64,000 bases of DNA from Echinicola sp. 20G (GTDB lineage Bacteria; Bacteroidota; Bacteroidia; Cytophagales; Cyclobacteriaceae), in the NCBI RefSeq assembly GCF_015533855.1, contig NZ_AP024154.1, positions 809,001 to 873,000 of the forward strand, read 5' to 3'. The notes beneath the pieces are model-generated. The model was not told the DNA's origin, ran no database searches, and saw nothing but the letters and a program-made list of their open reading frames with translations. Below, in pieces: positions 37,328 to 55,598 of the stretch. The stretch's first letter is position 1, and every line of letters starts with the position of its first letter. The translations under genes and the position numbers were made by a program.

Positions 37328-37488
37328 CCATTAGCTTCTATTTATTCAAACATTAAATGAAGGCTTCCCTTTCTGGCAAATTCAAATCCATTTGAATGAT
37401 TTCGATACGATCTCTTTGACTTTCACAACCTACCGAGCGATCGCACATCACCTATACATTCCAAAAATTGAGTGACAATACAGTTCAA

Positions 37489-37658
37489 AAAAGGGGGACA
37501 AAATGGAGGACGAAAAGGGGGACAAATTTGAGTCATTTGGAACCAATTGGAATTGAATTGAATCAATTTTACCTAACAAGATGCATTAACAACCCTATAA
37601 AACACAAAAAGTTGAACACAAAGGTTCAACTAATTGTTTAGTAGCGGGAACTGGGCTA
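37489..37658. repeat. Integration junction 2: arm-type repeats plus initiator-tRNA 3' fragment
   Basis: This is the second copy of the 170-nt segment at 14477. It has GGGGGAC, GGAGGAC, GGGGGAC at 37493, 37505 and 37517, a minus-strand hairpin with 7-bp arms GTTGAAC/GTTCAAC (37611-37630) and the core TAGTAGCGGGAACTGGGCT (37639-37657), which differs from the tRNA by one base. It lies 182 nt before the integrase gene and marks the left end of island B and the right end of island A. Confidence 0.88.
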
Positions 37659-37773
37659 CATACCTTTTATTTTCATTTTTCTCTATTTTACTATTTATAC
37701 TGTTTGAATGTATTTCAGTGCATTTTTAAAGTAAAATCCAGTTAGTAATGATTCGAATGGATTAAAGAAAAGT

Positions 37774-37792
37774 GTCCCCTAAACCGTCCCCC
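37774..37792. other. Arm-type integrase-binding repeats, left end of island B
   Basis: GTCCCCT and GTCCCCC at 37774 and 37786, 12-bp period, 48 nt before the integrase start. They match the pair at the other end, 56603 and 56615. Confidence 0.6.
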
Positions 37793-37839
37793 AAATTTTT
37801 TAAATGTTTATATTTAGCTATTGATAATCGGAATGAAAC

Positions 37840-39171
37840 ATGGCCAAATACAAGCTCTACTTACGTGACAAATCTAAAGATGGGGAAACTCCAATCACTC
37901 TTTTTGTCAACTACAATGGGAAACGTCTAAAATACCCCACTGGCAAATCCATTCATCCCAAACTATGGAATGATAATACGCAACAAATAAGGGTAGTCAA
38001 AACCTATCCAAATGCAAAATCTGTCAACAATACGCTATCCAATATTGTGATGTCAGCTCAAAAGTCATTTGAATTATTGGAAAGTCAGCTTCACAGAATC
38101 CCTACCACCGAAGAGCTCAAGGAGCAAATAGATTTAGAACTAAGTCGGAGTAATGAAGAAGTCGACACCGAACGCCTTCCAACGTTTTTAGAGCTTTTTG
38201 ACCGATTTATTGAGGAATCGAAAAATGGCTTGCGGTTAACTTCTTCCGGGAAACGCTTTGATAAACGATCAATTCAGAAGTACCAAACTGTTCAAAAAAG
38301 CCTTGTCAAATTCAACAAACGATATAACCTAACATTTGAAAGTATTGACAAAAACTTTTACAGCAAGTATGTGGACCAGTTAAATAGGAAAGAGACTAAA
38401 CTAAAAGATGGAAAAGAGATTGTTACCAAGCCTAGCTTCTCCTTAAATAACGTTGGCAAATATATTCAAGTTATCAAAACCTTTCTTAATTATGCGACTG
38501 AAAATGGATACAATTCAAACCTATACTATCAGTCTAGGCAATTCAAAGCATACAAAGTACCTGGTTTCAGCATATACCTCAATGAGGAGGAGATCAAGAA
38601 ATTATACGAAAAAAATCTTAGTAAAACACCAGCCTTGGAACGTGTACGTGATCTGTTTATCGTAGGTTGTTGGACTGGTTTAAGATTTTCAGATTTCACA
38701 AGCATCAAACCTGAAAATATTGAAGGAAACTTTCTAAAAATTACCACCTTTAAGACGAATGAAAAAGTGGTAATCCCTATTCATTATATGGTTCGAGACA
38801 TCATGGCCAAATACGAAGGAAAATATCCCAACAGCCTACCTCCTGCCATTAGTAATCAAAAAATGAATAGTTACCTGAAAGAAATTGCTAAAAAGCTTGA
38901 TTGCTTTAAAACTTCCATAGATGCTGAATCCACTAAAGGAGGTCTTAGGGTTACCGAGAAAAAGCATAAATGGGAATTGATAACTACACATACAGCTAGA
39001 AGATCGTTTGCAACTAACGTCTACAAAAGTGGTTTTCCAGCGATTAGCTTAATGAAAATCACTGGTCATAGAACGGAAAAAGCTTTTTTACTTTATATTA
39101 AAGTCACTCCAGAGGAAAATGCCAAACAGCTTTTGGAGCATTGGAATAAACGTGCAGTTAAAGCAATTTAA
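37840..39171 (+). CDS. Tyrosine recombinase/integrase
   Basis: A 443-residue site-specific recombinase. The N-terminal part (about 1-95) is the arm-binding domain of Bacteroidota integrases (GETPITLFVNYNGKRLKYPTG), followed by a SAM-like core-binding domain (about 113-235) and the catalytic domain. Catalytic residues are visible: Arg282 (TGLRFSDF), His384 and Arg387 (HTARRSF), His410 (TGHRT) and the nucleophile Tyr419 (LLYIKV). It would integrate and excise island B at the initiator tRNA. The gene lies next to the tRNA core repeat at 37639, as usual for tRNA-targeting elements. It overlaps none but abuts the next gene by one base. Confidence 0.96.
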   Translation: MAKYKLYLRDKSKDGETPITLFVNYNGKRLKYPTGKSIHPKLWNDNTQQIRVVKTYPNAKSVNNTLSNIVMSAQKSFELLESQLHRIPTTEELKEQIDLELSRSNEEVDTERLPTFLELFDRFIEESKNGLRLTSSGKRFDKRSIQKYQTVQKSLVKFNKRYNLTFESIDKNFYSKYVDQLNRKETKLKDGKEIVTKPSFSLNNVGKYIQVIKTFLNYATENGYNSNLYYQSRQFKAYKVPGFSIYLNEEEIKKLYEKNLSKTPALERVRDLFIVGCWTGLRFSDFTSIKPENIEGNFLKITTFKTNEKVVIPIHYMVRDIMAKYEGKYPNSLPPAISNQKMNSYLKEIAKKLDCFKTSIDAESTKGGLRVTEKKHKWELITTHTARRSFATNVYKSGFPAISLMKITGHRTEKAFLLYIKVTPEENAKQLLEHWNKRAVKAI

Positions 39172-39172
39172 T

Positions 39173-40006
39173 ATGGGAGTTTACACATTTGAAGATTGGT
39201 TAAAAGGAGTCAAAGAACCTAATAGTCCTTTTTGGGAGCTCGAATGGCATAATGGCATTGTTTCTTTTAATCCAGCAAAAAATAAAATTGCAGAAGCGAG
39301 AAGACAAGCGTTTTTTAATTTAGTTCAAATGCATTACGAATGGCATTGGCCCCTCATCGAAAATTCTTTTCCTCAAAACCTAGAAAGTGAAGAAAAAATA
39401 TTTCTTGCCAATCAAGAATTATCAAGGCATTCGAAAATTGTGGAAGGTTTCGGCTTAGAAAAAATTCTGAGGGGCCCTACTGATGTAGATTTAGAATTCA
39501 TAGATGGAGAATTATATAACAGAATAAAAAAAATAATTCATGAAAACTACTCAGAACTAAAGGATAAAAAGGAAATTATTTTTAACAGTAAGAAGTATAA
39601 TAGTGTGAAAGGAATAATTACTGTAGATGATATAAACTTAAAAGCCCATTTAGCACATAAACTTTCAAAAAGCCTTAAAACTTGGATTGAAGAAAACTCA
39701 CTTCCTCCTAGGGATCAAGAATTATTAAACAGCCTACAACAGAAACTTTGTATTTTATATGAATTAGGTATTCTTGATCTACTTGACAACAGGTTTAATA
39801 ATAAAAACTGTAATGCTCGAGGACCGGTTACTGAAAAAGCGAAACTGCTAGATACAATTTTGAATGTTGGAAAACATGAAAGAATTAGATCAGAACTAAG
39901 CAAGAAGGGTTTCCTTAAATCAAAATCAGCCAATAGAGAAGCTATAAAATTTTTAAATAATCGTGGACTAACCAACCAAAAATTAATTGATCCAGACGAA
40001 AATTAA
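39173..40006 (+). CDS. Unknown protein linked to the integrase
   Basis: A 277-residue protein from the ATG one base after the integrase stop; a longer frame starts inside the integrase gene. It is charged and mostly helical, beginning MGVYTFEDWLKGVKEPNS, with a Trp-rich N-terminal part (FWELEWHNGI, HYEWHWPLIE) and a C-terminal helix-turn-helix-like stretch (ARGPVTEKAKLLDTILNVGK). I recognise no family. Close coupling with the integrase suggests a role in mobility or in control of the element. Confidence 0.7.
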   Translation: MGVYTFEDWLKGVKEPNSPFWELEWHNGIVSFNPAKNKIAEARRQAFFNLVQMHYEWHWPLIENSFPQNLESEEKIFLANQELSRHSKIVEGFGLEKILRGPTDVDLEFIDGELYNRIKKIIHENYSELKDKKEIIFNSKKYNSVKGIITVDDINLKAHLAHKLSKSLKTWIEENSLPPRDQELLNSLQQKLCILYELGILDLLDNRFNNKNCNARGPVTEKAKLLDTILNVGKHERIRSELSKKGFLKSKSANREAIKFLNNRGLTNQKLIDPDEN

Positions 40007-40078
40007 AAAAGTTGTGGAGGCCACAAAAAAGCCGCAGATATAACTTTATCACTTTTGAGTAAATCAAACTCAAAAGCT

Positions 40079-40357
40079 ATGAAAATTGTGTTAACAACCA
40101 CTGAAGAACTAAATCAACTAATTAACGAAGCTGTATCGAGCGCAGTTCGCAAAATCCCTCTACAACAAACAATACCACCTAATGAGAAATTTCTTAGTAG
40201 GAAAGAAGCTGCTGAAAAGCTACGTATTTCATTAGTAACTCTTAATGATTACAGCAAAAGAGGGCTTGTCAAATCATTTTTGATTGGAGGCAGGGTCCTA
40301 TACAAGGACAAGGATTTAGAAGCTTGTCTCCATGAGGTAAAGCCTGTCAAATATTAA
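40079..40357 (+). CDS. Excisionase/MerR-like helix-turn-helix protein
   Basis: A 92-residue protein from the ATG at 40079; a TTG start eight codons upstream is possible. Its C-terminal half is the HTH_17 excisionase-type domain (LSRKEAAEKLRISLVTLNDYSKRG, then GGRVLYKDKDLEACL). In tRNA-targeting elements such proteins bend the att sites to favour excision or act as AlpA-type activators. The place two genes after the integrase fits both. Confidence 0.88.
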   Translation: MKIVLTTTEELNQLINEAVSSAVRKIPLQQTIPPNEKFLSRKEAAEKLRISLVTLNDYSKRGLVKSFLIGGRVLYKDKDLEACLHEVKPVKY

Positions 40358-40361
40358 AATA

Positions 40362-40538
40362 ATGATGGGTTTCAAAAAAGCTTTGTCAGGAGAAGTAGCT
40401 TCATTTGGCAAATACTATTCAATTTTCTGGCAGTGTAGGGACATAGGTCATATGATTCCTCATATACAAAGGGAATTGGAACAACATTCTGAAATACTTT
40501 TCTTATTTGGAGAGGAGGCCATAGCCTTATGGATTTAA
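40362..40538 (+). CDS. Small frame coupled to the following gene
   Basis: A 58-codon frame from two adjacent ATGs, beginning MMGFKKALSGEVASFGKYY and ending in EEAIALWI. It starts 5 nt after the HTH gene and its stop overlaps the start of the next gene (ATGGATTTAA). No family recognised. The tight spacing is the only evidence that it is translated. Confidence 0.5.
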   Translation: MMGFKKALSGEVASFGKYYSIFWQCRDIGHMIPHIQRELEQHSEILFLFGEEAIALWI

Positions 40539-40942
40539 ATTCACCAAAACCCTCTTCCCCTTGTTTTGTAGCTAAGTACAAATTAAAAGAAAGATGTTTT
40601 AATATTGAAGACTTTAGAACGTGTAATCTTGATGCCAATGACACAATCCAAATATTAAACTTTCTGCCCGAACAGCTCAAATTGATTCATTTCACTTCGA
40701 AAACCAAGAAAGGGCTTGTCAGTAATGGCTTCAATCCTGGGAACAGTCTTTTTTTTATCCCATTGTATTTCTTATTAAGGAAAGACGAATACCTGTCTTT
40801 ACGAAATCCTTTTTTACCCTCCACTGGACTTAATTATATGATTAAGGTCTTAATTAATGAGAGAAAAGCCATCCTATTACTGGAATTTTACGAAAGCTTT
40901 CCTGTCTCTAGTATAATAAAATATGAAAGGAGGATTCCATGA
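40529..40942 (+). CDS. Unknown protein upstream of the replication-like gene
   Basis: A 137-residue protein with a central amphipathic region (DTIQILNFLPEQLKLIHF) and a hydrophobic stretch (NSLFFIPLYFLLRKDEYLSL). No family recognised. It overlaps the preceding small frame by 10 nt and the next gene by ATGA, so the three are translationally coupled. Confidence 0.65.
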   Translation: MDLNSPKPSSPCFVAKYKLKERCFNIEDFRTCNLDANDTIQILNFLPEQLKLIHFTSKTKKGLVSNGFNPGNSLFFIPLYFLLRKDEYLSLRNPFLPSTGLNYMIKVLINERKAILLLEFYESFPVSSIIKYERRIP

Positions 40943-41850
40943 TAGATGACGTGTTACTAGTTATGGACATAACACCTCCAAAGGAGGTGATTAATGGAAC
41001 CAAACAGCCCTTCATTTGGAAAGACCTCATATTTGCCCCTTCGTTTAGGAAAGACTGTGTCATAAAATACACTGCCACATGGAAAAATTTAAAGTTAGAA
41101 ATATGGTATGACCAGCTTAAAGTCAATAACTCGTGGCACAAATTTTACCATGGGAATAATTATAGTGACTATACCTTCGAGGATATCAAGCAGACTATTG
41201 AACTATTTGTTGAAAAATTTGGACTAAATTTTCTAAAAGCTTCAATTAAGAAACTAACCATTGGATGTAACCTTTCTATTAATTCAAATAAATACTACCC
41301 ACGGTGTATTTCATTAGGCACCACATTTTTTCAAGAGATGAGAGGGGGAAATACCCATGTAGTTTATGGGCAATATGCAAAGCAAACCAACATAAAATTC
41401 AAGATTTATGACAAGCAATATGAGGTCAAAATTCATAATAGGGAAAAAATTGTACCCACGCTTAGAGTGGAACAGGAAATGAACATGAATTATATCAGAA
41501 AAAGGAAAGATACATCAATTAGGATCTACACCCCTTCTGACCTTCTTCAAAGAGATTGGCTTGTTGATGTCATATTTGAATTAACGCTGCAAACTGATAG
41601 GATTAACTTCAGTGGTGACTTACCTATAGAAAAGTCAGACTCTTTAATCGAATCGGAAATAAAAATTTTAATGGGAAATCTTCAGTATAGGAAAATAATT
41701 AAGACAAAAGCTTCTCCAAAGACCTATCAAAAAAGAGTTAAAATTTATGACAAAATGCTTGAAAATTATGAGGTTAAAAAGGCGAGCGACAGGCTTTCAC
41801 GCTTAGTTGGAAATAAAATGAATTTATTGGCAGGTCCAAATATGGGGTAA
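40939..41850 (+). CDS. Putative replication initiation protein (Cri/Rep-like)
   Basis: A 303-residue protein. The order KLTIGCNLSINSN, a central KFKIYDKQYEVKIHNR and LRVEQEMNM resembles rolling-circle or filamentous-phage-type replication initiators (phage Cri/RstA-like), in which a YDK segment and an LRxE segment are typical. The catalytic Tyr cannot be identified with certainty. Directly downstream, three palindromic repeats form an origin-like cluster. In phage satellites a replication gene and its origin sit between integrase and terminase genes, as here. A different DNA-binding role is possible. Confidence 0.55.
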   Translation: MIDDVLLVMDITPPKEVINGTKQPFIWKDLIFAPSFRKDCVIKYTATWKNLKLEIWYDQLKVNNSWHKFYHGNNYSDYTFEDIKQTIELFVEKFGLNFLKASIKKLTIGCNLSINSNKYYPRCISLGTTFFQEMRGGNTHVVYGQYAKQTNIKFKIYDKQYEVKIHNREKIVPTLRVEQEMNMNYIRKRKDTSIRIYTPSDLLQRDWLVDVIFELTLQTDRINFSGDLPIEKSDSLIESEIKILMGNLQYRKIIKTKASPKTYQKRVKIYDKMLENYEVKKASDRLSRLVGNKMNLLAGPNMG

Positions 41851-41987
41851 AACTTACCCTAAAATTAAAGGTGTGAATATTTCAAAATTCCCAGTAAAAT
41901 TTACCCATTATTTAGAAAATTCAGTAATGCGTAATAAAAGAAGAATTCAAACTTGTAATATACCATAAAATTAAGGTAAGATTTACC
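41846..41987. repeat. Palindromic iterons, candidate origin or operator cluster
   Basis: Three 13-mers of the form RGTAA-N3-TTACC lie between the replication-like and terminase genes: GGTAA-AAC-TTACC (41846-41858), AGTAA-AAT-TTACC (41893-41905), GGTAA-GAT-TTACC (41975-41987). A longer unit also recurs: ACCCTAAAATTAAAGGT (41856-41872) and ACCATAAAATTAAGGT (41962-41977). The last palindrome ends 11 nt before the terminase start. Confidence 0.6.
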
Positions 41988-41998
41988 ATTTCATAAAA

Positions 41999-42448
41999 AT
42001 GAAAACAGTCATACAAATTGAGTCCAAAACAATATTTCTTACCTCTAAGGAGGTTCGCTTTGTCCACCACTACTTGAGTGATGCAAAAATGAATGCCACC
42101 ACCGCAGCAAAATTGGCAGGGTACAGTAACCGTACAGCTGGACAACAAGGATATGAAAACATGAAAAAACCTGAAATTTTGGAATATATCCAGTTCAAAG
42201 CTAAACCAATTTTACAGCAGCTAGAAGTAACACGTGAGAAACTATTACAGGAATTAGCCAATATTGCCTTTTCTAACATCGGAGATGTAACTACACCAGA
42301 CTGGACTCTGAAGGATCTTAATGAAATAAATCCTGATATTATAGGAGCCGTAAAATCTATAAGGAAAAATAACAACGGTTATAAGGTTACTTTTCATGAT
42401 AAGCTGGCAGCACTCACTCTCTTGTTGAAACTATGTAACGACATATAA
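41999..42448 (+). CDS. Phage terminase small subunit (orphan)
   Basis: A 149-residue protein with the Terminase_2 pattern: LTSKEVRFVHHYLSDAKMN, ATTAAKLAGYSNRTAGQQGY, PEILEYIQFKAKP, EKLLQELANIAFSNIGDV. The small subunit recognises the DNA to be packaged and hands it to the large terminase. No large subunit, portal or capsid gene is in the window. In PICI-type satellites an orphan TerS redirects a helper phage to package the island. This gene is the main reason for calling island B satellite-like. Confidence 0.88.
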   Translation: MKTVIQIESKTIFLTSKEVRFVHHYLSDAKMNATTAAKLAGYSNRTAGQQGYENMKKPEILEYIQFKAKPILQQLEVTREKLLQELANIAFSNIGDVTTPDWTLKDLNEINPDIIGAVKSIRKNNNGYKVTFHDKLAALTLLLKLCNDI

Positions 42449-42666
42449 ATCAAATCAGTTTTTATAAAAAAAAAACAGATATACCCTAATTCAGGATCAT
42501 TATAACACAATTAATTCACTATAAATAGGCCATGTCTGCTTTACATTTTTCACTAATTGGTACTCTAAAAAGATATAATTATTTACTTTTTTCACCATTT
42601 AAAAGTTATTAATCTAATATTCAGTAAATTACTGTTCCTCATCACATTTTAAACTTTATTTTAGGT

Positions 42667-43062
42667 ATGAGTATGACAAATTTTGACCATTCAACACTTG
42701 CTTTACCTCAAACCACACTATCTGCAAGGGAAAATGAGCTAATATATCGATTGCACTTTAATCCCAACCAGTCATACGAGAAGGGCAAAAGACATAAGTT
42801 TATCATTAGACTAGAAATCAAACCAAATAACAAATTCACTAAAGAACAAACAGATCAATTCTCAATTAGATTTTTTTCGTTTGATCTCTTTCACACTGAA
42901 AATAGTGAAGAATTAAAATTTTTCTCATTTCGCAATAAAAGAGATGCACTAATTGAATTTGAATGCATCGCTAAAAATAGTGGCCCTACACAAATTTTCA
43001 TTAACTGTTTTCACAATGTTTTCTCATTCCATCGTGAAAAACACACCATTAATATTATTTAA
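42667..43062 (+). CDS. Unknown beta-rich protein of the CHAT module
   Basis: A 131-residue protein with alternating hydrophobic strands (KFIIRLEIKPN, QFSIRFFSFDLF, QIFINCFHNVFSF), looking like a beta-sandwich. No family recognised. Its stop is 4 nt before the CHAT protease start, so the two are co-translated. In NTP-independent and NTP-dependent conflict systems, CHAT proteases often sit with or contain similar beta domains. It may be a sensor or adaptor; this is an inference. Confidence 0.6.
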   Translation: MSMTNFDHSTLALPQTTLSARENELIYRLHFNPNQSYEKGKRHKFIIRLEIKPNNKFTKEQTDQFSIRFFSFDLFHTENSEELKFFSFRNKRDALIEFECIAKNSGPTQIFINCFHNVFSFHREKHTINII

Positions 43063-43066
43063 CTTC

Positions 43067-44170
43067 ATGGATGATTTTTATGTTGTAACAATAAAACATA
43101 TTTCTTACAGTATAATAGAAACTTATGATGAAAGAAATAGTGTTTTAAACATTCTTTTCATGAAGAAATCTGATGATGGTAAAAATCCTACCAGGTGGCA
43201 AATTGATATAAGAGATACTGGAGAACTGAATAATTTAGAAGGCAGTAAAAGGCAACTTTACAGAAAATTAGAAGAAATAACCATTGATTTATATGAAAAG
43301 AATAATAGAGCTACAAATAGTAAGCTAATAGATTTAAATCGAATAGGGGTATATTTATTTAACCAGTTATTTAGTAAACTGGGAGAGCAAGTAAAGTACG
43401 ATCAATCAATAAAAGAATTATTTCTCCCCTCTTTGATAAATCAAAAAATTCATGTTGTATCATCCCATTTTAAAATCGAATATAAGTTACTGAACAATGG
43501 GTTACGTAAAAGTCAAACATCTGATTATGAAAGTTTTTTAGGCAATAAATACATTTTTCTTTTTGATTTATACAATGTAATGACTCAAAATACAACAAAT
43601 GCCCCAAACAAAGATCCTTCAAATATTAAAATCAAACTTATTCATCATAATGAATTTGAAAACCTTGATAATATCCTTGATTTTCAAGTAGAAAAATACG
43701 ACCGTTCTCTTCCTATAAGACGATTCATTGAGAATGGAGAATTCGATATATTACATTTAGCTTGCCATATAAAAAGTAATAGCAAATTCAAATCCCCTAA
43801 ACCAAATGAATATATTTTGGATTTTGGAGACACTTTTTTAACACATTTTGACATTTTGGAATGTAAAAAGTTAGGCGGTAAAGTAGTTTTTATAAGTGCG
43901 TGTAATTCAGGCTTTGGAATAGACACCGACTATTGTTTGGTTGAAGACATATTATCCAAAGCTAATGCTTCCACTGTAATAGGAACGAGCGATAGAATTC
44001 TTAGTAAATTTGCGACTGAATTTGCTAGTGAATTCTGGAAAAACGTAATAAGATATAATGGATATTTAGATGAGGCCTTACACTTTACTACTCATGATTT
44101 TATTAAAAACAGTAAAGGGTGGGGAGGAGTGATATATAAAGTGTATGGTAAAAACACAATTTTTAACTAA
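43067..44170 (+). CDS. CHAT-domain caspase-like protease
   Basis: A 367-residue protein from the ATG at 43067; the open frame begins earlier but overlaps the previous gene. The C-terminal half is a CHAT domain with the catalytic pair His234 (FDILHLACHIKS) and Cys279 (VVFISACNSGFG). Before it lie about 200 residues with alternating helices and strands (QLYRKLEEITIDLYEKNN). CHAT proteases in bacteria act in defence, for example the Craspase partner Csx29 and gasdermin-activating proteases, and in peptide-based signalling. No gasdermin or CRISPR effector is visible here. The next gene encodes a small Pepco-like protein. Confidence 0.85.
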   Translation: MDDFYVVTIKHISYSIIETYDERNSVLNILFMKKSDDGKNPTRWQIDIRDTGELNNLEGSKRQLYRKLEEITIDLYEKNNRATNSKLIDLNRIGVYLFNQLFSKLGEQVKYDQSIKELFLPSLINQKIHVVSSHFKIEYKLLNNGLRKSQTSDYESFLGNKYIFLFDLYNVMTQNTTNAPNKDPSNIKIKLIHHNEFENLDNILDFQVEKYDRSLPIRRFIENGEFDILHLACHIKSNSKFKSPKPNEYILDFGDTFLTHFDILECKKLGGKVVFISACNSGFGIDTDYCLVEDILSKANASTVIGTSDRILSKFATEFASEFWKNVIRYNGYLDEALHFTTHDFIKNSKGWGGVIYKVYGKNTIFN

Positions 44171-44183
44171 AGACCTTTTAATT

Positions 44184-44486
44184 ATGAAGGATAATTCGAT
44201 TAATATTTTTTATAATGAAGAGCTATTCAGAGATGGTTCTCCAACAATAAGATCTATTCGACAAATTGATCTAGACACACTTGCAAATGAATTAAGTGAA
44301 TTTAAAAATAAATTAAGGTTAGTCTTTGGAAAAGAAGAGACAAGTAATTCTCCATACGAGCTAGATGAAATTACAGTTTTAGCCGAAATTTCTTCGGAAG
44401 GGAAAGTTGGTTTATTAGGAACTGGCGCCTCTGTCGCAGCAAAAGCAAGCTTAACTTTCAAATTTAAAAAAGTAAAAACTACTTAA
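44184..44486 (+). CDS. Small Pepco-like domain protein
   Basis: A 100-residue protein from the ATG 14 nt after the CHAT stop (an ATG at 44145 overlaps the CHAT gene). The C-terminal part YELDEITVLAEISSEGKVGLL followed by GTGASVAAKASLTFKFKK has the pattern I associate with the peptidase-co-occurring (Pepco) domain reported next to CHAT and trypsin-like peptidases in conflict systems. The assignment is from memory of the motif. It may be the substrate or the regulator of the protease. Confidence 0.6.
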   Translation: MKDNSINIFYNEELFRDGSPTIRSIRQIDLDTLANELSEFKNKLRLVFGKEETSNSPYELDEITVLAEISSEGKVGLLGTGASVAAKASLTFKFKKVKTT

Positions 44487-44541
44487 ACTAGATTAAAACA
44501 ATCCAAAGTATTTTAAGAAATTACACTTTTTTACTTAGATT

Positions 44542-44575
44542 TATGTTTTTACAACATAGTACTTTTTCGAAAAAG
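44542..44575. promoter_or_regulatory. Two palindromes directly before hsdR
   Basis: TATGTT-N5-AACATA (44542-44558) and the perfect 14-bp palindrome CTTTTTCGAAAAAG (44562-44575) end one base before the hsdR start codon. The second occupies the place of a ribosome-binding site. They could be an operator or an RNA hairpin that blocks translation. Confidence 0.55.
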
Positions 44576-44576
44576 C

Positions 44577-47378
44577 ATGGATTTTGTCAATCAGAACCCG
44601 GAGCAAATAGCCAGAGACCAGATAGACAGCTTGCTGGAGAAAGCTGGTTGGTTGGTGCAATCAAAAAACAAGGTCAACCTCTCTGCTGCCAAAGGTATTG
44701 CTGTACGGGAATACCAAACCGATTCAGGTCCAGCAGACTACGTTTTATTCGTGGATAAAAAACCTCTAGGAATCATTGAAGCGAAAAGGGAAGAAGAAGG
44801 ACTAAAACTAACCACTGTTGAAGACCAATCAAAAAGATATGCTCACGGAAAGCTGAAATACCTTAATAATGATCCTTTACCTTTTGCATACGAAAGTACT
44901 GGTGTTTTAACTCGATTTACGGATTACCGTGATCCAAAGCCCAGGTCAAGACCAGTATTCCATTTTCATAAACCTAAGACCTTACAGGAATGGGCTAGCA
45001 CACAGCAAACGCTAAGGAAAAAGCTAACCCTTATGCCAGTGCTCCCAATTGACGGGCTTAGACCCGCACAGATTGGCGCCATTCAAAACCTTGAAAAATC
45101 CTTTAAGCACAACCATCCCAAAGCACTTATCCAAATGGCTACTGGGGCCGGAAAGACCTTTACTGCCTGTACCTTTATTTATCGGTTGCTGAAACATGCA
45201 AATGCTAAGCGGGTCTTATTTCTAGTGGATACCAAAAATCTAGGAGAGCAAGCAGAGCAGGAATTCCTTAAATTGCAACCCTCAGATGATAACCGAAAAT
45301 TTACCGAACTGTACAATGTACAACGACTAAGCTCCAGTTATATCGCATCAGACAGCCAAGTATGTATTTCTACCATTCAACGCCTTTATTCTATACTTAA
45401 AGGGGAAGAACTGGAGGAAGAGGCTGAAAAGGAGAATCCCAACGAACAATCCTGGCAATGGCAGAAAAAAGATCCTGTTCCAGTAGAGTATTCTAATGAT
45501 AATCCTATTGAGCAGTTTGACTTTATTGTTATTGATGAATGCCATCGTTCCATCTATAATCTTTGGAAACAAGTATTGGACTATTATGATGCATTTCTGA
45601 TCGGACTAACCGCCACTCCTGACAAAAGGACTTTCGGTTTCTTTGATGAGAATGTGGTAAGTGAATACACCTATGAACAATCTGTATTAGATGGGGTAAA
45701 TGTACCCTATGATGTTTTCACCATTGAAACCGAAATCTCCAAGGGAGGAGGAAGAATTGAGGCCAAAGAGTACGTGGACAAACGGGAGAAACTCACCCGT
45801 AAAAAACGTTGGGAACGACTGGATGAAGACTATGAGTATACCTCTAAAAAGCTTGATAAGGATGTGGTCTCCCCTAGTCAAATACGAACCATTATTAGGG
45901 CTTTCAAAGATAGCCTTCCTAACATATTCTCAGACCGCTTTGATGAAAAGGGAGAATTTGAGGTGCCAAAAACCCTGATATTCGCCAAAACTGATAGCCA
46001 TGCTGATGACATCATCCAGATAGTCCGAGAAGAATTTGCAGAAGGAAACGATTTCTGCAAAAAGGTAACCTATAAAATCGATGAAGACCCAAAATCTGTA
46101 TTAAACCGTTTCCGTAATTCCTGGGCTCCTAGGATCGCTGTAACAGTGGACATGATCGCTACAGGTACAGATGTAAAGCCCTTGGAAGTGCTATTGTTTA
46201 TGCGTGATGTAAAGAGTACCAACTATTTTGAACAGATGAAAGGCCGTGGTACCCGTACCATCAAGTTTGATGACCTCAAAAAAGTGACCCGAACAGCAAA
46301 ACATACCAAAACCCACTTTGTGATCGTGGATGCCATCGGGGCGACCAAATCTAAAAAAACAGATAGCCGACCGCTTGAACGAAAGCCTGGTGTACCTTTA
46401 AAGGATTTGCTCGGAGCAGTGGCTATGGGTGTGCAGGATGAGGACTTGTTTACCTCTCTTGCCAATCGCCTGATACGACTGGAAAAGCAGCTCACAGAAG
46501 CGGAAAAAGAAAAATATAAAGAGCATACAGAAGGCACCAGTATGAAAGGAGTAGCTTCCTCCCTATTGGCCGCTTATGATCCTGATATCCTTGAAGACAA
46601 ACTGGAACAAAGGATTGGGGAAATCGCTCCAGAAAACCGATCGCCTGAACTTATAGAAAACACCAAAAGCACCATCAGAGAAGAACTGATGTCCAAAGCT
46701 TCGTCTTTCTTTAATGGAGGAATCAATGAGTATATTGAGAATGTCCGAAAAGTACATGATCAGATCATTGATACCATCAATCAAGATGCATTACTAAAAG
46801 CAGAATGGGACAGTTTTAGCAAGGATAAAGCCCAAGATGTGGTAAAGGACTTCAAAGATTATATAGAGTCCCACAAAGAAGAAATAACGGCTTTACGGCT
46901 TTTTTACGGTCAACCCTACCAAAGAAGGGAGCTGACCTTCAAAATGACTAAAGACTTACTGGAAAAGCTGAAACTGGAAAAACCCTTACTTGCCCCTCAT
47001 TATGTATGGGAAGCATATAACCAACTTGAGGAAGTGAAAGGCCATTCCCCAAAAAATGAATTGGTCGTCTTGGTTTCCCTTGTTCGAAGGGTCTGTGGAA
47101 TAGACAGCCAACTTACCCCTTATCCCAAAATGGTGGACAAGCACTTTCAAGAGTGGATATTTAAGCAAAATGCCGGAAAGCACAATAAGTTCACCGAAGA
47201 ACAAATGCAGTGGCTCCGCATGCTTAAAGACCATATTGCTACCAGCTTTCATGTGGATATAGAAGACCTGGACTATACCCCATTTGATGCCCAAGGGGGC
47301 AGAGGGAAGATGTGGCAGCTCTTTGGGGAGGAGATGAATACGGTTATTGAGGAATTAAATGAGGCTTTAATAGCGTAA
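44577..47378 (+). CDS. hsdR: Type I restriction enzyme R subunit (EcoEI-type)
   Basis: A 933-residue restriction subunit. The N-terminal nuclease has the PD-(D/E)xK residues Asp54, Glu68 and Lys70 (GPADYVLF...GIIEAKRE). The helicase follows with Walker A TGAGKT at 189-194, the Walker B box DECH at 320-323 and motif VI GRGTRT. The C-terminal part matches the EcoEI_R_C type. It translocates DNA with ATP and cuts unmodified foreign DNA when bound to HsdM and HsdS, which are encoded 5 kb downstream. It is the first gene of the restriction locus. Confidence 0.95.
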   Translation: MDFVNQNPEQIARDQIDSLLEKAGWLVQSKNKVNLSAAKGIAVREYQTDSGPADYVLFVDKKPLGIIEAKREEEGLKLTTVEDQSKRYAHGKLKYLNNDPLPFAYESTGVLTRFTDYRDPKPRSRPVFHFHKPKTLQEWASTQQTLRKKLTLMPVLPIDGLRPAQIGAIQNLEKSFKHNHPKALIQMATGAGKTFTACTFIYRLLKHANAKRVLFLVDTKNLGEQAEQEFLKLQPSDDNRKFTELYNVQRLSSSYIASDSQVCISTIQRLYSILKGEELEEEAEKENPNEQSWQWQKKDPVPVEYSNDNPIEQFDFIVIDECHRSIYNLWKQVLDYYDAFLIGLTATPDKRTFGFFDENVVSEYTYEQSVLDGVNVPYDVFTIETEISKGGGRIEAKEYVDKREKLTRKKRWERLDEDYEYTSKKLDKDVVSPSQIRTIIRAFKDSLPNIFSDRFDEKGEFEVPKTLIFAKTDSHADDIIQIVREEFAEGNDFCKKVTYKIDEDPKSVLNRFRNSWAPRIAVTVDMIATGTDVKPLEVLLFMRDVKSTNYFEQMKGRGTRTIKFDDLKKVTRTAKHTKTHFVIVDAIGATKSKKTDSRPLERKPGVPLKDLLGAVAMGVQDEDLFTSLANRLIRLEKQLTEAEKEKYKEHTEGTSMKGVASSLLAAYDPDILEDKLEQRIGEIAPENRSPELIENTKSTIREELMSKASSFFNGGINEYIENVRKVHDQIIDTINQDALLKAEWDSFSKDKAQDVVKDFKDYIESHKEEITALRLFYGQPYQRRELTFKMTKDLLEKLKLEKPLLAPHYVWEAYNQLEEVKGHSPKNELVVLVSLVRRVCGIDSQLTPYPKMVDKHFQEWIFKQNAGKHNKFTEEQMQWLRMLKDHIATSFHVDIEDLDYTPFDAQGGRGKMWQLFGEEMNTVIEELNEALIA

Positions 47379-47385
47379 TTTTTAT

Positions 47386-48645
47386 ATGACAACTAAAGAA
47401 TTTCGAGAATTAATATCAGAATCTAAAAACAAAGATCTTTTCTTTGAACAGGAAGCAAAATTATATTTCCCACAAACTGGCATAGATAGGGAATTTAAAA
47501 ATATTCCAGCCTTTCATGAGTATCTGATGAATCAGATATCAGGCCTAAAGGGTTTAGGCGATAATATTCCTGATGAATTTCAACGTACCATAACACATTT
47601 TAAAAATCAGTCAGAACGAATAGAATATTTTGCTAAAAATAGTGGTAATCGTCCACCACATCAATTCAAAAGCAATTGGAATAATGTAAGAAATATTATC
47701 CCCAGTAATGAAAATATATTTGAATTTGATGCTCCCATAACTGATTTCTTGTTAGACATATTTGTAAATAAGAATCTATATTATACAGGTGCACTTCATT
47801 ACATGGTTGGAAAGATAAGCGCTGGGGGAATTCAAGAAAGAAAATATTTGAATGGCCTGCTTCTTGGTTATGAATACTTTCAGAAAGGAGAAACCGAAAT
47901 CTCCAAAAGAAGAACGAATGAGAAATCATCATTGACCAAGCTTAGAAAGACAATGGACTCCTATAAATCTGACGCAGAAAAGGAGTTTATTGAACTTTCT
48001 ACCAAATTAAAAGAAGAGTTTGATGAAAGAAATCAGGAAATACTTGAACTGAAGGAAGGAAACAAAACTTCTTATGAAGAGTGGTTCAGTAAAACTTCCG
48101 ACTCATTTGACACTTTTAATTCCGAATCCAAAAAACGTATTAACGATCTGGAGGAACTTTACAAGAGTAAGTTATCTCTCGAAGCCCCTGCTAAATACTG
48201 GAATGACCGTGCAACTAAACTTAAAACTGAAGGCTATAAGTGGTTGGCGGCACTAGTTGTAATCACCATTATAAGTGCAGGGATATTAACCTACTCACTT
48301 AATCTCTTAGCGGATGGAGTTTTAAAAGAAATTTTCAAGGACACTGCCAGTGCTATAAAATGGTCAGTAATTTTTATTACCATTGTATCCCTTTTGGCAT
48401 TTTTGATAAAAACCTTTTCCAAAATGACCTTTAGTACCTTTCATATGGCCCGTGATGCGGAGGAAAGAGAACAGTTAACCTATGTCTATCTGGCCATGAA
48501 AGAAAAACAGTCCATTGATGAAACGGAAAGACACTTGATTATGCAATCGCTTTTTAGCAGGGTGGACACAGGATTACTTAAAGATGATGCATCCCCAACC
48601 ATGCCAGGGAATATTGTTGATAAATTTATTTCTGGAGCGAGATAA
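47386..48645 (+). CDS. Membrane-anchored coiled-coil protein (DUF6161-like) in the restriction locus
   Basis: A 419-residue protein. The N-terminal half (1-165) is globular, residues about 165-280 form a long coiled coil (ISKRRTNEKSSLTKLRKTM onwards), and two transmembrane helices lie at about 288-308 and 326-344. A cytoplasmic tail follows. Such proteins are seen within type I restriction loci of Bacteroidota; I associate it with DUF6161 but cannot confirm that. It follows hsdR by 7 nt. A membrane anchor in a restriction locus suggests a separate abortive or injection-blocking function. Confidence 0.6.
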   Translation: MTTKEFRELISESKNKDLFFEQEAKLYFPQTGIDREFKNIPAFHEYLMNQISGLKGLGDNIPDEFQRTITHFKNQSERIEYFAKNSGNRPPHQFKSNWNNVRNIIPSNENIFEFDAPITDFLLDIFVNKNLYYTGALHYMVGKISAGGIQERKYLNGLLLGYEYFQKGETEISKRRTNEKSSLTKLRKTMDSYKSDAEKEFIELSTKLKEEFDERNQEILELKEGNKTSYEEWFSKTSDSFDTFNSESKKRINDLEELYKSKLSLEAPAKYWNDRATKLKTEGYKWLAALVVITIISAGILTYSLNLLADGVLKEIFKDTASAIKWSVIFITIVSLLAFLIKTFSKMTFSTFHMARDAEEREQLTYVYLAMKEKQSIDETERHLIMQSLFSRVDTGLLKDDASPTMPGNIVDKFISGAR

Positions 48646-48742
48646 ATAAAAGCTGAGCGAGTATGGAACTAAACAAAACAAAATAGTAATTTACATATAG
48701 AGAACAAGCATCTGGTTTGTATTTTTAGGGATTAGAAATAAC

Positions 48743-49414
48743 ATGGAATTCGAAAATAAACTTAAAATAGGAATAGGAATCTACACAGTTTCCAAGATAG
48801 CTACCATACTTCGACAACCATATGCGAAAGTAAATCGATGGGTAAAAGAGTATTGGGATGGGAAACTTGGGGCCCAATTTCAAAGCAGGTACTCCTGGGA
48901 AGTGGACAAATCCAAAGCCGTAAGCTTCCATACCTTGATAGAATTCTATGTAATGGTTCAGTTTGCTGAGGCAGGTGTCCAAACAAAAAAAGTTTTGCAA
49001 GCACATTTGGAGCTTTCCAAACTATTTAACACCGCTTTCCCATTTGCCCAGAAAAAAGTTATTGATGGCATTCGAACTGATGGATGCAGGGTGTATGTTC
49101 AGCACGAAGGGGGGACCGTTTCTCTGGATGGCACCAAGCAGCTGAATCTTGATTTTATAGCGCTGTTTTTTAAAAAACTAGAGTTTGATGCAGATCAACT
49201 AGCATCTGGCTTTTGGCCCATGGGTAAAGAAAAATCGATATTTATCGACCCCAAGCGTAAATTTGGACATCCTGTCATCGATGGACATAATATCTATCCA
49301 GAAACAATTTTTTCTCACTTCCAAGCAGGGGATCCAGTGGAGTATATCGCTTATGTCTATGACCTGACAGAAAAACAAGTCAAGGATGCCCTCGAATTTT
49401 GTAAAGCGGCATGA
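48743..49414 (+). CDS. DUF433-type antitoxin
   Basis: A 223-residue protein. The N-terminal half is helical with a MerR-like DNA-binding look (YTVSKIATILRQPYAKVNRW). The C-terminal 50 residues match DUF433 (GHPVIDGHNIYPETIFSHF, then AYVYDLTEKQVKDALEFCKAA), the antitoxin of VapBC45-type pairs. Its stop overlaps the next start by ATGA. It would neutralise the PIN-like toxin and repress the pair. Confidence 0.85.
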   Translation: MEFENKLKIGIGIYTVSKIATILRQPYAKVNRWVKEYWDGKLGAQFQSRYSWEVDKSKAVSFHTLIEFYVMVQFAEAGVQTKKVLQAHLELSKLFNTAFPFAQKKVIDGIRTDGCRVYVQHEGGTVSLDGTKQLNLDFIALFFKKLEFDADQLASGFWPMGKEKSIFIDPKRKFGHPVIDGHNIYPETIFSHFQAGDPVEYIAYVYDLTEKQVKDALEFCKAA

Positions 49415-49830
49415 CCATCATTTACCTAGACGAAAATATGCCACGCCATTTGGCCGAAGGATTCCATACTTTACAGGCCCCTGAAGGACTTAAAACAGGT
49501 AATAAAATAGAAGTAAAATATATCCCCAAAGAATTTGGCCTAGGCGTGAAGGATGTGGATTGGATACCAAAAATTGGTAGGCAAAAAGCCTGTGTAATAA
49601 CCCAAGATATCAATATTAATCGAAAAAGTCATGAATTAAAATTGTATCAAGAACATAGAGTCGGTATGTTTTTCCTTAGAGGACCAAGTAAAAAGAAGGG
49701 CTTAAGTATCTGGGAAATGGTCCAAGCCTTAGCCAAGCAATGGCCTGAAATATCTAAAATAGCCATTCAGGAACCTAAGCCATTTGCCTATCAAATTACA
49801 TTAAAGGGCAAGTTAAAGAGATTACCCTAA
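49411..49830 (+). CDS. PIN-like toxin (DUF5615/VapC45-like)
   Basis: A 139-residue protein of the PIN-like Mut7-C/DUF5615 type: IYLDENMPRHLAEGF with acidic Asp6 and Glu7, and VITQDININRKSHEL with a second acidic residue. It would cleave RNA when freed from the DUF433 antitoxin. It is translated together with the antitoxin (4-nt overlap). The pair lies inside the type I restriction locus, between hsdR and hsdS, where it can stabilise the locus or act if restriction fails. Confidence 0.85.
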   Translation: MTIIYLDENMPRHLAEGFHTLQAPEGLKTGNKIEVKYIPKEFGLGVKDVDWIPKIGRQKACVITQDININRKSHELKLYQEHRVGMFFLRGPSKKKGLSIWEMVQALAKQWPEISKIAIQEPKPFAYQITLKGKLKRLP

Positions 49831-49861
49831 ATTTAAGATCACGATATTGCTGAAATTAATA

Positions 49862-51133
49862 ATGAGAGACAGTTGGATCAATGTTGACCTAGGACATATT
49901 CTTGTTCAATCAAAAGAAAAACATAAGCCCCAAAAAGAAGAAGAGCATTTTTATATTGGTTTAGAGCACATTGAAAAAGGAATAGGTGAATTATGTGGTC
50001 TAAATCGCTTTGAGAAAATCAAAACTGTTAAGAACAAATTTAGCAAAGGACAAATATTATATGGGAAACTTCGACCGTATTTAAACAAAGTCTATCTAGC
50101 GAAGGAGTCTGGGGTTTGCTCTACAGATATTTTAGTGTTTCAGCCGAAAAAAGAAGTCCTCCCTAAGTTTGCTTTACAATATATGTTAAGCAGACAATTT
50201 GTAAATGATATGTCAGCAAACACTAATGGTGTTAATCTCCCAAGAGTCCCTACATCCTTCATTAATAACTACCTATTCCCCCTCCCTCCTCTTCCCGAGC
50301 AGCGGGCGATAGTGGCCAAGATCGAGCAGCTATTTAGCGAGCTGGACAATGGTATCGCCAACCTAAAAACCGCCAAGGAAAAACTTAAGATCTACCGCCA
50401 AGCTGTACTGAAGAAGGCTTTTGAGGGGGAACTGACAAATTCTATTAATAGAATGAAAATAATTCCTTTTGGTGAAGAAATTAAGATTGTAAGCGGTAAT
50501 ACTCCTAAAGGATTAAATGACATTTCATCGTCCGGAAATATTCCTTTTTATAAAGTTAGTGATATGAATCTACCAGGGAATCAAATTGAAATGAAATGCT
50601 CTAAATTAGTCCTAAATGATAATGATATCAAAAAACTTAAAATAAAGATTCATCCAAAAGGAACAGTGATATTTCCAAAAAGGGGTGGTGCAATTTTAAC
50701 AAACAAAAAAAGGATTCTGTCAAAAGATGCTGCATTTGATCTTAATTTAATGGGCGTGATTCCAAATGAAAATTACATTAGCAAATACCTATTCTACTTT
50801 TTTCAGTTACAGGATTTGGGCAAAATATGTGATGGATCTGCTGTTCCTCAAATAAATAACAAAAACATCTCTCCACTAAATCTTCCTAAGTACTCATTAA
50901 AGGAGCAAAATCAAATCGTTGAGGAAATCGAAACCCGACTTTCTGTTTGCGACAATGTATTATCCACTATTGAAGCCAATCTGGAAAAATCAGAATCACT
51001 TCGACAGAGCATTTTAAAAAGGGCTTTTGAGGGGGAACTTCTTGATGAAAAGGAACTGGAAGCTTGTAGGAAAGAAGCTGATTGGGAACCTGCTGAGAAA
51101 CTTTTGGAGAGGATAAATAAAGAGAAAACATAA
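49862..51133 (+). CDS. hsdS: Type I restriction-modification specificity subunit
   Basis: A 423-residue S subunit from the ATG at 49862; a TTG five codons earlier is possible. It has two target-recognition domains (about 1-145 and 200-345), each followed by a conserved coiled-coil spacer: PLPPLPEQRAIVAKIEQLFSEL, then LKIYRQAVLKKAFEGEL, and later SLKEQNQIVEEIETRL with RQSILKRAFEGEL. The two halves bind the two parts of a split DNA site. The duplicated AFEGEL segments are a known place for recombination that changes specificity. Confidence 0.93.
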   Translation: MRDSWINVDLGHILVQSKEKHKPQKEEEHFYIGLEHIEKGIGELCGLNRFEKIKTVKNKFSKGQILYGKLRPYLNKVYLAKESGVCSTDILVFQPKKEVLPKFALQYMLSRQFVNDMSANTNGVNLPRVPTSFINNYLFPLPPLPEQRAIVAKIEQLFSELDNGIANLKTAKEKLKIYRQAVLKKAFEGELTNSINRMKIIPFGEEIKIVSGNTPKGLNDISSSGNIPFYKVSDMNLPGNQIEMKCSKLVLNDNDIKKLKIKIHPKGTVIFPKRGGAILTNKKRILSKDAAFDLNLMGVIPNENYISKYLFYFFQLQDLGKICDGSAVPQINNKNISPLNLPKYSLKEQNQIVEEIETRLSVCDNVLSTIEANLEKSESLRQSILKRAFEGELLDEKELEACRKEADWEPAEKLLERINKEKT

Positions 51134-51145
51134 AAAAGGAAGAAT

Positions 51146-51484
51146 ATGAGTTTTTGGCAAACATTATTCATAGCTGCAATTCCAGCAATATTAACTGGAC
51201 TTATCGCCTACTTTGGAAATCGATTAGATTATCTAAGGTTTCGTTCTGAAACTATGGCTGAAAGAACGGTCAGGTATTATTTAAGCCATAAAGGTTATAC
51301 TGACAGAAAATTCACGACAATTAAAAAATCGATTGGAAGATATAAGGATGATGAACTAAGAAGAATTTTAGTAAGGGCGGGTGCTGAAAGGAGTTATAGA
51401 GGAGAGGAGACTGAGGAAAACGAATATTGGAACTTACTCTCTAGAAAGATGGAAAAAATCCAAAAAAAGAAAAGTAAGACATGA
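51146..51484 (+). CDS. Small single-pass membrane protein in the restriction locus
   Basis: A 112-residue protein with one N-terminal transmembrane helix (TLFIAAIPAILTGLIAYFG, about 6-24) and a basic, winged-helix-like tail (RYYLSHKGYTDRKFTTIKK, DELRRILVRAG). No family recognised. It begins 12 nt after hsdS and overlaps the next gene by ATGA. Confidence 0.65.
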   Translation: MSFWQTLFIAAIPAILTGLIAYFGNRLDYLRFRSETMAERTVRYYLSHKGYTDRKFTTIKKSIGRYKDDELRRILVRAGAERSYRGEETEENEYWNLLSRKMEKIQKKKSKT

Positions 51485-52422
51485 ATATCGGTAAACTTGA
51501 AAAGGTAGATCCCCGACAGCTTTGGTTGGGAGAGGCTTCTGACTTTACACCTTGGCTGGCAAGAGAAAGTAATATCGAATACCTAAGTGAGGTAATTGGT
51601 TTGGAGCTGGAAATAATCAGTGAAGAAAAAAGTGTAGGCCCCTTCCGAGCGGACATTCTTTGTAAAAGCTTAGTGGACGACTCCTATGTCCTAATCGAAA
51701 ATCAACTGGAAAAGACTGACCATACCCATCTGGGCCAGTTAATTACCTATGCTGCTGGACTGGATGCTGTCAAAATTATTTGGATCTCCATTAAATTTAC
51801 GGAAGAGCATAGGGCTGCATTGGATTGGCTCAACAGGCATACGGACGAAAAACTACAGTTTTTTGGAATAGAATTAGAGGTTTACCGTATCGGAGAGTCC
51901 TCCCCAGCCCCATTATTTCAGATGATATCTAAGCCAAACGATTGGTCAAAAGCCGTCACTAGGGCACAAAAAACAGCAGAATTAACCGATACAAAGCTAT
52001 TAAATTTAGAGTTTTGGACTGCCATGAGGGCTCATTTTGAGCAGTCCGGTTCGAAACTTAAATGTCAAAAACCTCAGCCACAGCATTGGACTAACTTTGC
52101 AATAGGCAGGAGTGATTTTAATTTGGCAGCTGTTGCTAGTTTTAGAGATAATTTTGTGAGAGTAGAATTTAACCTACTGGGGCCCAAAGCAAAAGATAGA
52201 TTTGATCTTTTGAAATCTACATATGAGGACAATTCAAGAGAATTTATAGGACAAAATATAGAGTGGCAAAGACTGGATGAAAAAATTGTTTCTATTGTTT
52301 CTCTGACCACTCACATACAGATTTCCGATAAAGAAAACTGGCAAAATCCATTTGATTGGCTCTTATTAACTTTAGTGAAGTTTGACACCTTCTTTAGGAC
52401 AAAAATTAAACAATTACCCTAA
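51481..52422 (+). CDS. DUF4268 protein with PD-(D/E)xK-like nuclease fold
   Basis: A 313-residue protein. The N-terminal part has a nuclease-like pattern FRADILCKSLVDDSYVLIE followed by NQLEKTDHTHLGQLITYA, in which the acidic residues and Gln fit the PD-(D/E)xK variant. The C-terminal half (about 170-310, FWTAMRAHFEQSG, NFAIGRSDFNLA) is the DUF4268 region. It overlaps hsdM by one base (TAATG). Such proteins are frequent beside type I and type IV systems; a role in DNA cleavage is inferred. Confidence 0.8.
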   Translation: MNIGKLEKVDPRQLWLGEASDFTPWLARESNIEYLSEVIGLELEIISEEKSVGPFRADILCKSLVDDSYVLIENQLEKTDHTHLGQLITYAAGLDAVKIIWISIKFTEEHRAALDWLNRHTDEKLQFFGIELEVYRIGESSPAPLFQMISKPNDWSKAVTRAQKTAELTDTKLLNLEFWTAMRAHFEQSGSKLKCQKPQPQHWTNFAIGRSDFNLAAVASFRDNFVRVEFNLLGPKAKDRFDLLKSTYEDNSREFIGQNIEWQRLDEKIVSIVSLTTHIQISDKENWQNPFDWLLLTLVKFDTFFRTKIKQLP

Positions 52423-53936: not shown

Positions 53937-53944
53937 AAGATATA

Positions 53945-54562: not shown

Positions 54563-54645
54563 TTTTCCTAAAAAATTATAACGCATGGTTATAAAAAGAA
54601 GCTTAGTGTCAAATCAAGCTAATCATCTCCAAATTTATGCATATC

Positions 54646-55497: not shown

Positions 55498-55598
55498 ATC
55501 TGATTTACAAATTCACTTCTTCTTACAAGATGAACAGAAAGCATAAACTCCTGGCTTTCTAATTTTCAACCGTTATTAACACAAGTAATTCTCCTTCA

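Follow-up and report, generated by a model that had tools for sequence, protein, structure and literature searches.

A PICI-like island pairing a small terminase subunit with a rolling-circle-type replication gene in Echinicola sp. 20G: a probable phage satellite of Bacteroidota

Introduction

Why would a bacterial island carry the gene for a phage small terminase subunit (TerS) and no recognizable gene for the large subunit (TerL)? We address this question for an integrated element in a 64,000-nucleotide stretch of the Echinicola sp. 20G genome (Bacteroidota; assembly GCF_015533855.1, contig NZ_AP024154.1, positions 809,001 to 873,000; the whole stretch is hereafter ‘the window’). The element occupies window positions 37639–56681, is inserted at the 3' end of a tRNA-Met gene and measures 19,024 bp, its ends being set by the spacing of its attachment (att) repeats. 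Its first 5 kb contain, all on the plus strand, an integrase gene (int), an open reading frame (ORF) without assignment, an excisionase-like HTH_17 gene (xis), a small ORF, a replication gene (rep) and terS. An initial annotation, made from the sequence alone, had described this part as the core of a phage-inducible chromosomal island (PICI) and had listed integrase, excisionase-like gene, replication gene, repeats and TerS, all of which were found where it had placed them (by Pfam, PHROG, fold comparison and motif count). Its satellite reading also held up, in that the TerS is genuine, TerL was not recognised and TerS lies near the same Rep in six islands. We conclude that the island is probably a Bacteroidota phage satellite of PICI-like character, with its own rolling-circle replicon and an SPP1-type TerS, and that its DNA would be packaged by the TerL of a helper phage.

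TerS and Rep of the island

The terS gene (41999–42448, plus strand) encodes a small terminase subunit of the SPP1/SF6 G1P type. The protein matches PF03592 (Terminase_2) with an E-value of 3.5e-31 over profile positions 1–127 of 141, a span that includes the C-terminal region, and it is the sole PF03592 match in its own genome at E 1e-3. A TerS profile of seven rows finds the SF6 TerS (3zqp) with an E-value of 2.3e-18. The structure prediction proposed by the initial annotation was borne out for the N-terminal half, which models as TerS and aligns with the DNA-binding domain of SF6 TerS (4zc3) at a TMt of 0.94 and an rmsd of 0.8, the Foldseek E-value being only 3e-3; the C-terminal half was poorly modelled, as discussed below.

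The neighbouring rep gene (40939–41850, plus strand) has no Pfam hit. Its predicted model, likewise proposed as a check, matches rolling-circle initiators in structure comparison, and by its fold the product is best described as a rolling-circle-type replication initiator (a MOBT-like relaxase also fits). Searches with a Rep profile against the PDB and with 14 Rep rows against Pfam returned nothing meaningful, so it is the fold comparison by itself that assigns Rep to the rolling-circle type. Residue Y157 is the sole tyrosine invariant across the 14 rows. No primase or helicase family was found by Pfam in the int–terS part. A search of IMG/VR contigs with one peptide pattern matched four stretches, none of which encoded a Rep relative, and none was found among GenBank phages; a scan of genome contigs with the Rep alignment, from which the window's own genome was possibly absent, gave four loci.

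Recurrence of the Rep–TerS pair

We compared seven islands: that of the window, one from the same genus (G008), and those of Algoriphagus hitonicola (G319/L062), Cyclobacterium sp. 1_MG-2023 (L061), Rhodonellum psychrophilum (L063), genome G021 and Pararhodonellum marinum (G393/L064), the A. hitonicola and P. marinum genomes belonging to the same family as that of the window. Six of the seven, representing at least four genera, have terS at a distance of 0.15 to 1.8 kb from rep. The seventh, from P. marinum, has a Rep cut to 204 amino acids (aa), and neither xis nor TerS was found there by profile. The terS gene is downstream of rep in the window, R. psychrophilum and G021, and upstream of xis–rep in G008, A. 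hitonicola and Cyclobacterium; since it is present in all six and its order varies, the gene has been kept while its position changed. The initial annotation had proposed a search for the same gene order in other Cytophagales, and it is the pairing of Rep and TerS, found in five other islands, that recurs rather than the order. Given this recurrent linkage, the sequences indicate that TerS is no chance gene in the island.

The islands are inserted at tRNA-Leu(caa) or tRNA-Met(cat) genes. Their att spacings are 19,024 bp in the window, 19,565 bp in G008, 19,464 bp in A. hitonicola, 14,132 bp in G021 (where the match is of 15 nt only) and 18,166 bp in P. marinum, so that three of the seven measure 19.0–19.6 kb; no second att copy was found for the Cyclobacterium and R. 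psychrophilum islands in the 20 kb examined. Within the order, Rep occurs in 47 and PF03592 in 40 of 390 genomes, and by coordinates the two lie within a few kb of each other only in the window's genome (G000) and in A. hitonicola in these 390-genome lists.

The TerS proteins of the five close islands form one clade among phage and other TerS sequences (SH-aLRT 97 in a tree of 103 rows; support 100/95 in a tree of 56 rows, obtained from the 103 by keeping every third viral row and dropping two long-branched rows). The sister of this clade is the TerS of another Cytophagales genome (G140). The TerS of G021 is placed apart from the other five in the best trees, nearest to that of an IMG/VR contig (L085), with a single clade including G021 not rejected (p-AU 0.146; 56 of 103 rows); the Rep tree likewise separates G021. 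A tentative scenario, possible and a little short of probable, is that a widespread Bacteroidota family of integrative elements with a rolling-circle initiator became phage satellites by acquiring a phage TerS, first in the ancestor of the main clade and a second time in the G021 lineage. Their rolling-circle concatemers would then be substrates for the headful packaging of a helper, which would make this a second evolutionary route to a PICI-like life.

Two side observations concern relatives of these elements. A. hitonicola (L057/L046) has two similar membrane-like ORFs (joined coordinates 3645–4382 and 23056–23844), one just outside and one inside the island; judged by eye, they may mark a second, older tandem island at tRNA-Leu. 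In a TerS-less Rep locus (L054), a small ORF (10381–10635; phrog_15261, without assigned function, 2.5e-4) lies between rep and a tmRNA gene.

Boundaries of the island and a tandem array

The att copy distal to the tRNA gene (37639–37657, core TAGTAGCGGGAACTGG) agrees in 18 of 19 nt with the copy at the tRNA-Met 3' end (56663–56681), which overlaps the tRNA-Met gene (56665–56738, minus strand). With at most one mismatch allowed, the core occurs four times in the single-contig 5.79-Mb genome, at contig (C1) positions 804603 (one mismatch), 823627, 846639 and 865663, all of them inside one array. The site is uninterrupted in G008, where the DNA corresponding to the left of 804603 directly adjoins that to the right of 865663; another genome (G001) has the genes of the left flank ending at a distance of 2.5 kb from the tRNA gene, which is consistent with an uninterrupted site without being exact. 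It follows that ∼61 kb were inserted as three tandem islands. The TerS island (A) is the innermost of the three, adjacent to the tRNA gene. A 13-nt sequence, ACCGTCCCCCAAA, is found in identical form near both of its ends (37783–37795 and 56600–56612); these are possible arm-type sites of the integrase.

The two outer islands, in neither of which an integrase was found by profile, share their left ends (14681–14958) and right ends (37436–37654) with an array in a relative (G007), with 97% identity in the stretch at the tRNA gene. Island B (window 14627–37639; 23,012 bp) contains metabolic and Rnf-like genes by eye, and island C (G000:C1:804603 to window 14627; 19,024 bp) contains SusC/SusD-like genes by eye. 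Islands C (804603–823627) and A (846639–865663) have the same att spacing of 19,024 bp and differ in their genes; the equal length is probably due to chance.

Large terminase and structural genes

In agreement with the initial annotation, a Pfam scan of 20 island ORFs found no family typical of TerL, portal, capsid or tail proteins, and none for lysis or conjugation. The same scan recognised no capsid-remodelling gene and no coupling protein or other mobilization family. We also used a set of at least 31 profiles, for which we took all ORFs of 350 aa or longer that follow a viral TerS within 3 kb and added the TerL of the genome's own prophage. This set, which also holds non-TerL genes (one of them tape-measure-like) and which missed TerL-like ORFs seen by eye at two loci (L175 and L200), matches in none of the seven islands. 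Nor were structural genes, which by the initial annotation would have spoken against its reading, recognised in the related island copies, those of Cyclobacterium and R. psychrophilum being covered over ∼20 kb.

The same set matches within 1.5 kb at 16 of 28 other Cytophagales TerS loci (one per genome from 29 of the 40 PF03592 genomes, with the A. hitonicola island, L177, excluded and the window as the thirtieth) and within 10 kb at two more (G065 and G368). The rest consist of the two loci with TerL-like ORFs by eye, one ambiguous locus (L188) and seven with none within 10 kb. In IMG/VR, 64 of 68 related TerS genes are followed within 3 kb by an ORF of 350 aa or more, as in phages; the 68 are those in which TerS was picked by profile among the best 80 of at least 464 related stretches, the other 12 being uncounted. 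The four exceptions are L112 and L129, in which the TerL-like ORF is shorter, L095, whose contig ends at TerS, and L085.

Contig L085 (11,182 bp) encodes a PF03592 TerS (7.2e-46), and no TerL was seen in it by eye. By eye it presents an integrase-like end, divergent helix-turn-helix (HTH) genes, a primase-like ORF and terS, followed by tape-measure-like fragments; two ORFs that match one profile of the downstream-ORF set look like tape measure. It looks like a classical PICI. With the Echinicola island it shares a PF03592 TerS without a TerL seen by eye and HTH genes, and it differs in its integrase-like, divergent repressor-like and primase-like ORFs (by eye) and its tape-measure-like ORFs.

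Of these seven Cytophagales loci, in which TerL was not recognised, five (G140, G271, G076, G060 and G257) have int, xis and terS in one stretch; no int was found in the other two (G091 and G117). The G140 element (L201, 7857–15370) is ∼7.5 kb long, lies at tRNA-Asn and carries int, xis and terS, no TerL being recognised in it; two of its ORFs (8284–8916 and 11380–11886) have no Pfam hit. Replication genes that are, or are likely to be, of primase type bring G257 (DUF6371 with zinc ribbon, AAA_25) and G076 (DUF3987, PriCT_2) nearer to classical PICIs. Tape-measure-like ORFs occur in G076 (TMP_3 below the cut-off) and G060 (by eye), so some of these loci may be prophage-derived. The loci L205, L207, L209 and L212 are of this int/xis/terS kind, TerL not being recognised in them, with tape-measure-like ORFs in L207 and L209.

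A candidate helper prophage

The co-resident prophage that the initial annotation had suggested looking for is present: a siphovirus-like prophage lies at about C1:388–423 kb of the same genome (L203 and L204; the range is open on the tail side). It encodes a portal, HK97-type head/capsid proteins, a protease, tail proteins, a holin, an integrase, a TerL (PF03354/PF20441) and a PF05119 TerS, and is a possible helper. Its TerL is a 535-aa ORF that matches PF03354 at 5.7e-35, with PF03237 below the cut-off in the same ORF; the notion of a genome without TerL was rejected on this match. As a TerL probe, phrog_2 missed this gene and gave two weak matches in the genome (3e-5 and 1.1e-4), the first in a PhoH-like ORF by eye. 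This prophage and the three-island tandem array both lay beyond the view of the initial annotation.

Other features of the int–terS part

The integrase is a tyrosine recombinase (37840–39171, plus strand; Pfam Phage_integrase 4.5e-12, Arm-DNA-bind_5 9.5e-12, Phage_int_SAM_5 2.5e-9), followed by an ORF without assigned function (39119–40006, plus strand), for which Pfam gave nothing over the cut-off. The HTH_17 gene (40055–40357, plus strand) encodes an excisionase-like DNA-binding protein (PF12728 4.4e-6, barely above the Pfam cut-off; phrog_66, excisionase/regulator, 9.4e-7), has a counterpart next to rep in each of the five other islands with TerS and could encode an AlpA-like regulator. The small ORF directly upstream of rep (40529–40942, plus strand) has homologues at the corresponding position of L008 (31%) and L046 (26%). 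No separate minus-strand regulator gene of the kind found in a divergent stl/str pair stands out in the ORF list for 37.8–42.4 kb, where the minus-strand ORFs mostly overlap plus-strand genes and lie outside the Pfam scan.

Between rep and terS (41846–41987) are three palindromic repeats, GTAARAYTTACC, with copies at 41847, 41894 and 41976. With at most one mismatch, the pattern GGTAANNNTTACC has seven matches in the 64 kb against 1.74 expected, three of them within 142 bp, and one of 100 shuffles reached at least seven. These palindromes may serve as an origin, an operator or a pac site. The Cyclobacterium island has a single GTAANNNTTAC copy, 78 bp beyond rep; in the four other TerS islands neither this motif nor other consistent palindromes were found near rep or terS. 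The ‘origin-like repeats’ of the initial annotation are real as repeats and putative as an origin.

Cargo genes

Beyond the int–terS part, the island consists mostly of restriction and other defence cargo, plus ORFs without assignment; all of the genes that follow are on the plus strand. An ORF without assigned function and without a Pfam hit (42667–43062) precedes a CHAT-domain gene (42953–44170; PF12770 5.9e-6) and a Pepco-domain gene (44145–44486; PF24393 1.2e-17), neither of which has a PADLOC hit. A type I restriction system is represented by HsdR (44577–47378; ResIII 1.8e-41, EcoEI_R_C 4.1e-41, PADLOC REase_I 2.3e-50), the HsdS specificity subunit (49847–51133; PF01420 1.2e-21) and the HsdM methyltransferase (52422–53936; N6_Mtase 7e-69, MTase_I 3.5e-189). 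Interspersed with these are a DUF6161/AbiZ-like gene (47386–48645; PF19658 2.4e-61, PADLOC AbiZ 7.5e-30), a DUF433 gene and a PIN_10 gene (48743–49830; PF04255 1.2e-12 and PF18478 1.3e-21, PADLOC none) that would form a toxin–antitoxin-like pair, and a DUF4268 gene of the candidate defence family PDC-S11 (51481–52422; PF14088 2.8e-23, PDC-S11 7.2e-118); a DUF2971 gene (54637–55497; PF11185 1.6e-10, PDC-S31 1.1e-6) lies beyond. Defence-type cargo also occurs in the relatives, with an HsdM-like protein and McrBC in G008, MmeI-like and Schlafen/AlbA proteins in A. hitonicola and GmrSD in R. psychrophilum (assigned, as for the window, by Pfam or PADLOC), and with restriction genes by eye only in Cyclobacterium.

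Discussion

Capsid-stealing satellites are best known from Bacillota and Gammaproteobacteria. PICIs are controlled by regulators of the divergent stl/str type (Gram-positive) or by alpA (Gram-negative), and have an iteron origin by the replication gene. The Echinicola island resembles the Staphylococcus aureus pathogenicity islands and other PICIs in its integrase, att repeats at a fixed site, excision and replication genes and TerS without TerL or structural or lysis genes, and also in its cargo between terS and the far end, the defence character of that cargo and its size (∼10–20 kb for PICIs). It differs in having a rolling-circle-type Rep where they have a primase–helicase, in that no divergent stl/str pair was seen, in the position of terS upstream of xis–rep in three of six members and in its Bacteroidota host. 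On the first three of these grounds the initial description of a PICI core in the known order went too far. This comparison draws in part on PMC10690885 and PMC13376191. PICIs that use cos sites instead are described (PMC10690885), so that TerS without TerL is typical of PICIs and not required. We therefore call the island PICI-like rather than a PICI: it has no recognised replication gene of the primase type usual in PICIs, and PICI-type regulators and dependence on a helper are putative. Capsid-forming PICIs have their own capsid, portal and TerL genes, none of which is among the 20 island ORFs.

A rolling-circle replicon can yield concatemers, and TerS proteins of the SPP1 type serve headful packaging of concatemers, as in SPP1 and SF6. 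A precedent for the first of these in a satellite is the phage-inducible chromosomal minimalist island PICMI115 of Vibrionaceae, for which the published report describes rolling-circle replication seen by experiment and packaging as a concatemer, suggestive of headful packaging, and in which the authors did not identify a terS (PMC10803314). That element and the Echinicola island are alike as small integrated satellites with rolling-circle replication (by experiment there, as suggested by the fold here) and unlike in that TerS is present here. The combination of a concatemer-making Rep with a headful-type TerS is, given this precedent, a coherent one. The same source notes virion-encapsidated integrative mobile elements (VEIMEs) and tycheposons as chromosomal islands transduced in marine bacteria, many of them perhaps satellites (PMC10803314).

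We infer the following course for induction, replication, recruitment of TerL and packaging. When a helper phage infects the cell or a prophage is induced, the integrase together with the HTH protein would excise the island, and Rep would then produce concatemers by rolling-circle replication. The island TerS would bind a pac site of the island and bring its DNA to the helper TerL, and helper capsids would be filled with island DNA by headful packaging. In a new host the island would insert at tRNA-Met, where the type I restriction system and other defence genes may protect that host.

Several points weigh against a satellite. The reading is drawn from genes and modelled structures. A profile search of 11 more Rep loci, ten of them distant and one that of P. 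marinum, found TerS in none, so TerS is not a necessary part of the Rep element itself. In the model of the island TerS the C-terminal half is poor (pLDDT block means of 41–57 from residue 71) and therefore says little about the TerL-binding part. The resident prophage has a TerS of another family (PF05119) than that of the island (PF03592), so this prophage is no more than a candidate helper. In the six TerS-island genomes and G140, PF03354 was found in two of seven (the window's genome and R. psychrophilum), PF04466 in none and PF03237 over the cut-off in none; with four of the six TerS-island genomes thus lacking a TerL by these three families, their helper would have to be an incoming phage or one with a TerL of another kind. 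The defence cargo of G021 is weak, being a DNA methylase only. Finally, the modelled fold of Rep is compatible with a replication initiator and a relaxase alike, and Rep could be a relaxase.

If Rep were a MOBT-like relaxase of the Rep_trans kind, the island would be an integrative mobilizable element, transferred by the conjugation apparatus of another element and carrying TerS as a passenger or regulator. MOBT relaxases, among which NicK of ICEBs1 and Orf20 of Tn916 represent the Rep_trans kind, are related to the rolling-circle initiators that the Rep model matches. Mobilizable elements with such relaxases have an integrase, an excisionase, a Rep_trans-like protein and a tRNA site in common with the island; the existence of the same int–xis–rep elements without TerS, and the lack of a capsid-remodelling gene recognised by Pfam, would also suit this explanation. 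Against it stand the conservation of TerS near Rep in six of seven islands, in changing order, and the lack of a recognised coupling protein or mobilization partner among the 20 scanned ORFs. We consider this explanation unlikely.

TerS might also have been co-opted to regulate genes by binding DNA, or to assist replication, without a role in packaging, acting for example on the adjacent palindromes. That the three palindromes lie directly upstream of terS and that the HTH domain is the best-modelled part of the protein would agree with such a role, which we nevertheless hold to be improbable: the match to PF03592 extends into the C-terminal region, where invariant positions are shared with a TerS of undescribed context (P0011), and of the five other TerS islands only that of Cyclobacterium has the palindrome, in a single copy. 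That the island is what remains of a tailed prophage after the loss of everything except int, xis and terS, genes that are of a prophage kind, is already disfavoured and very improbable, given that at least four genera have this gene set, that the att sites match in all four TerS islands with both ends covered, and given Rep relatives in no viral contig or phage record and no recognised fragments of the structural, TerL and lysis genes of a tailed prophage.

We thus return to the island as a probable phage satellite. In the literature covered, which left subscription papers largely outside, we found no report of satellites of Bacteroidota. If the reading is correct, a clade of TerS islands that carry defence cargo and replicate by a module of another kind would bring this abundant phylum into the range of the satellite lifestyle, and would offer an explanation for the spread of restriction and other defence systems within it. 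It would also provide a test of whether the capture of TerS alone makes a satellite out of an integrative replicon.

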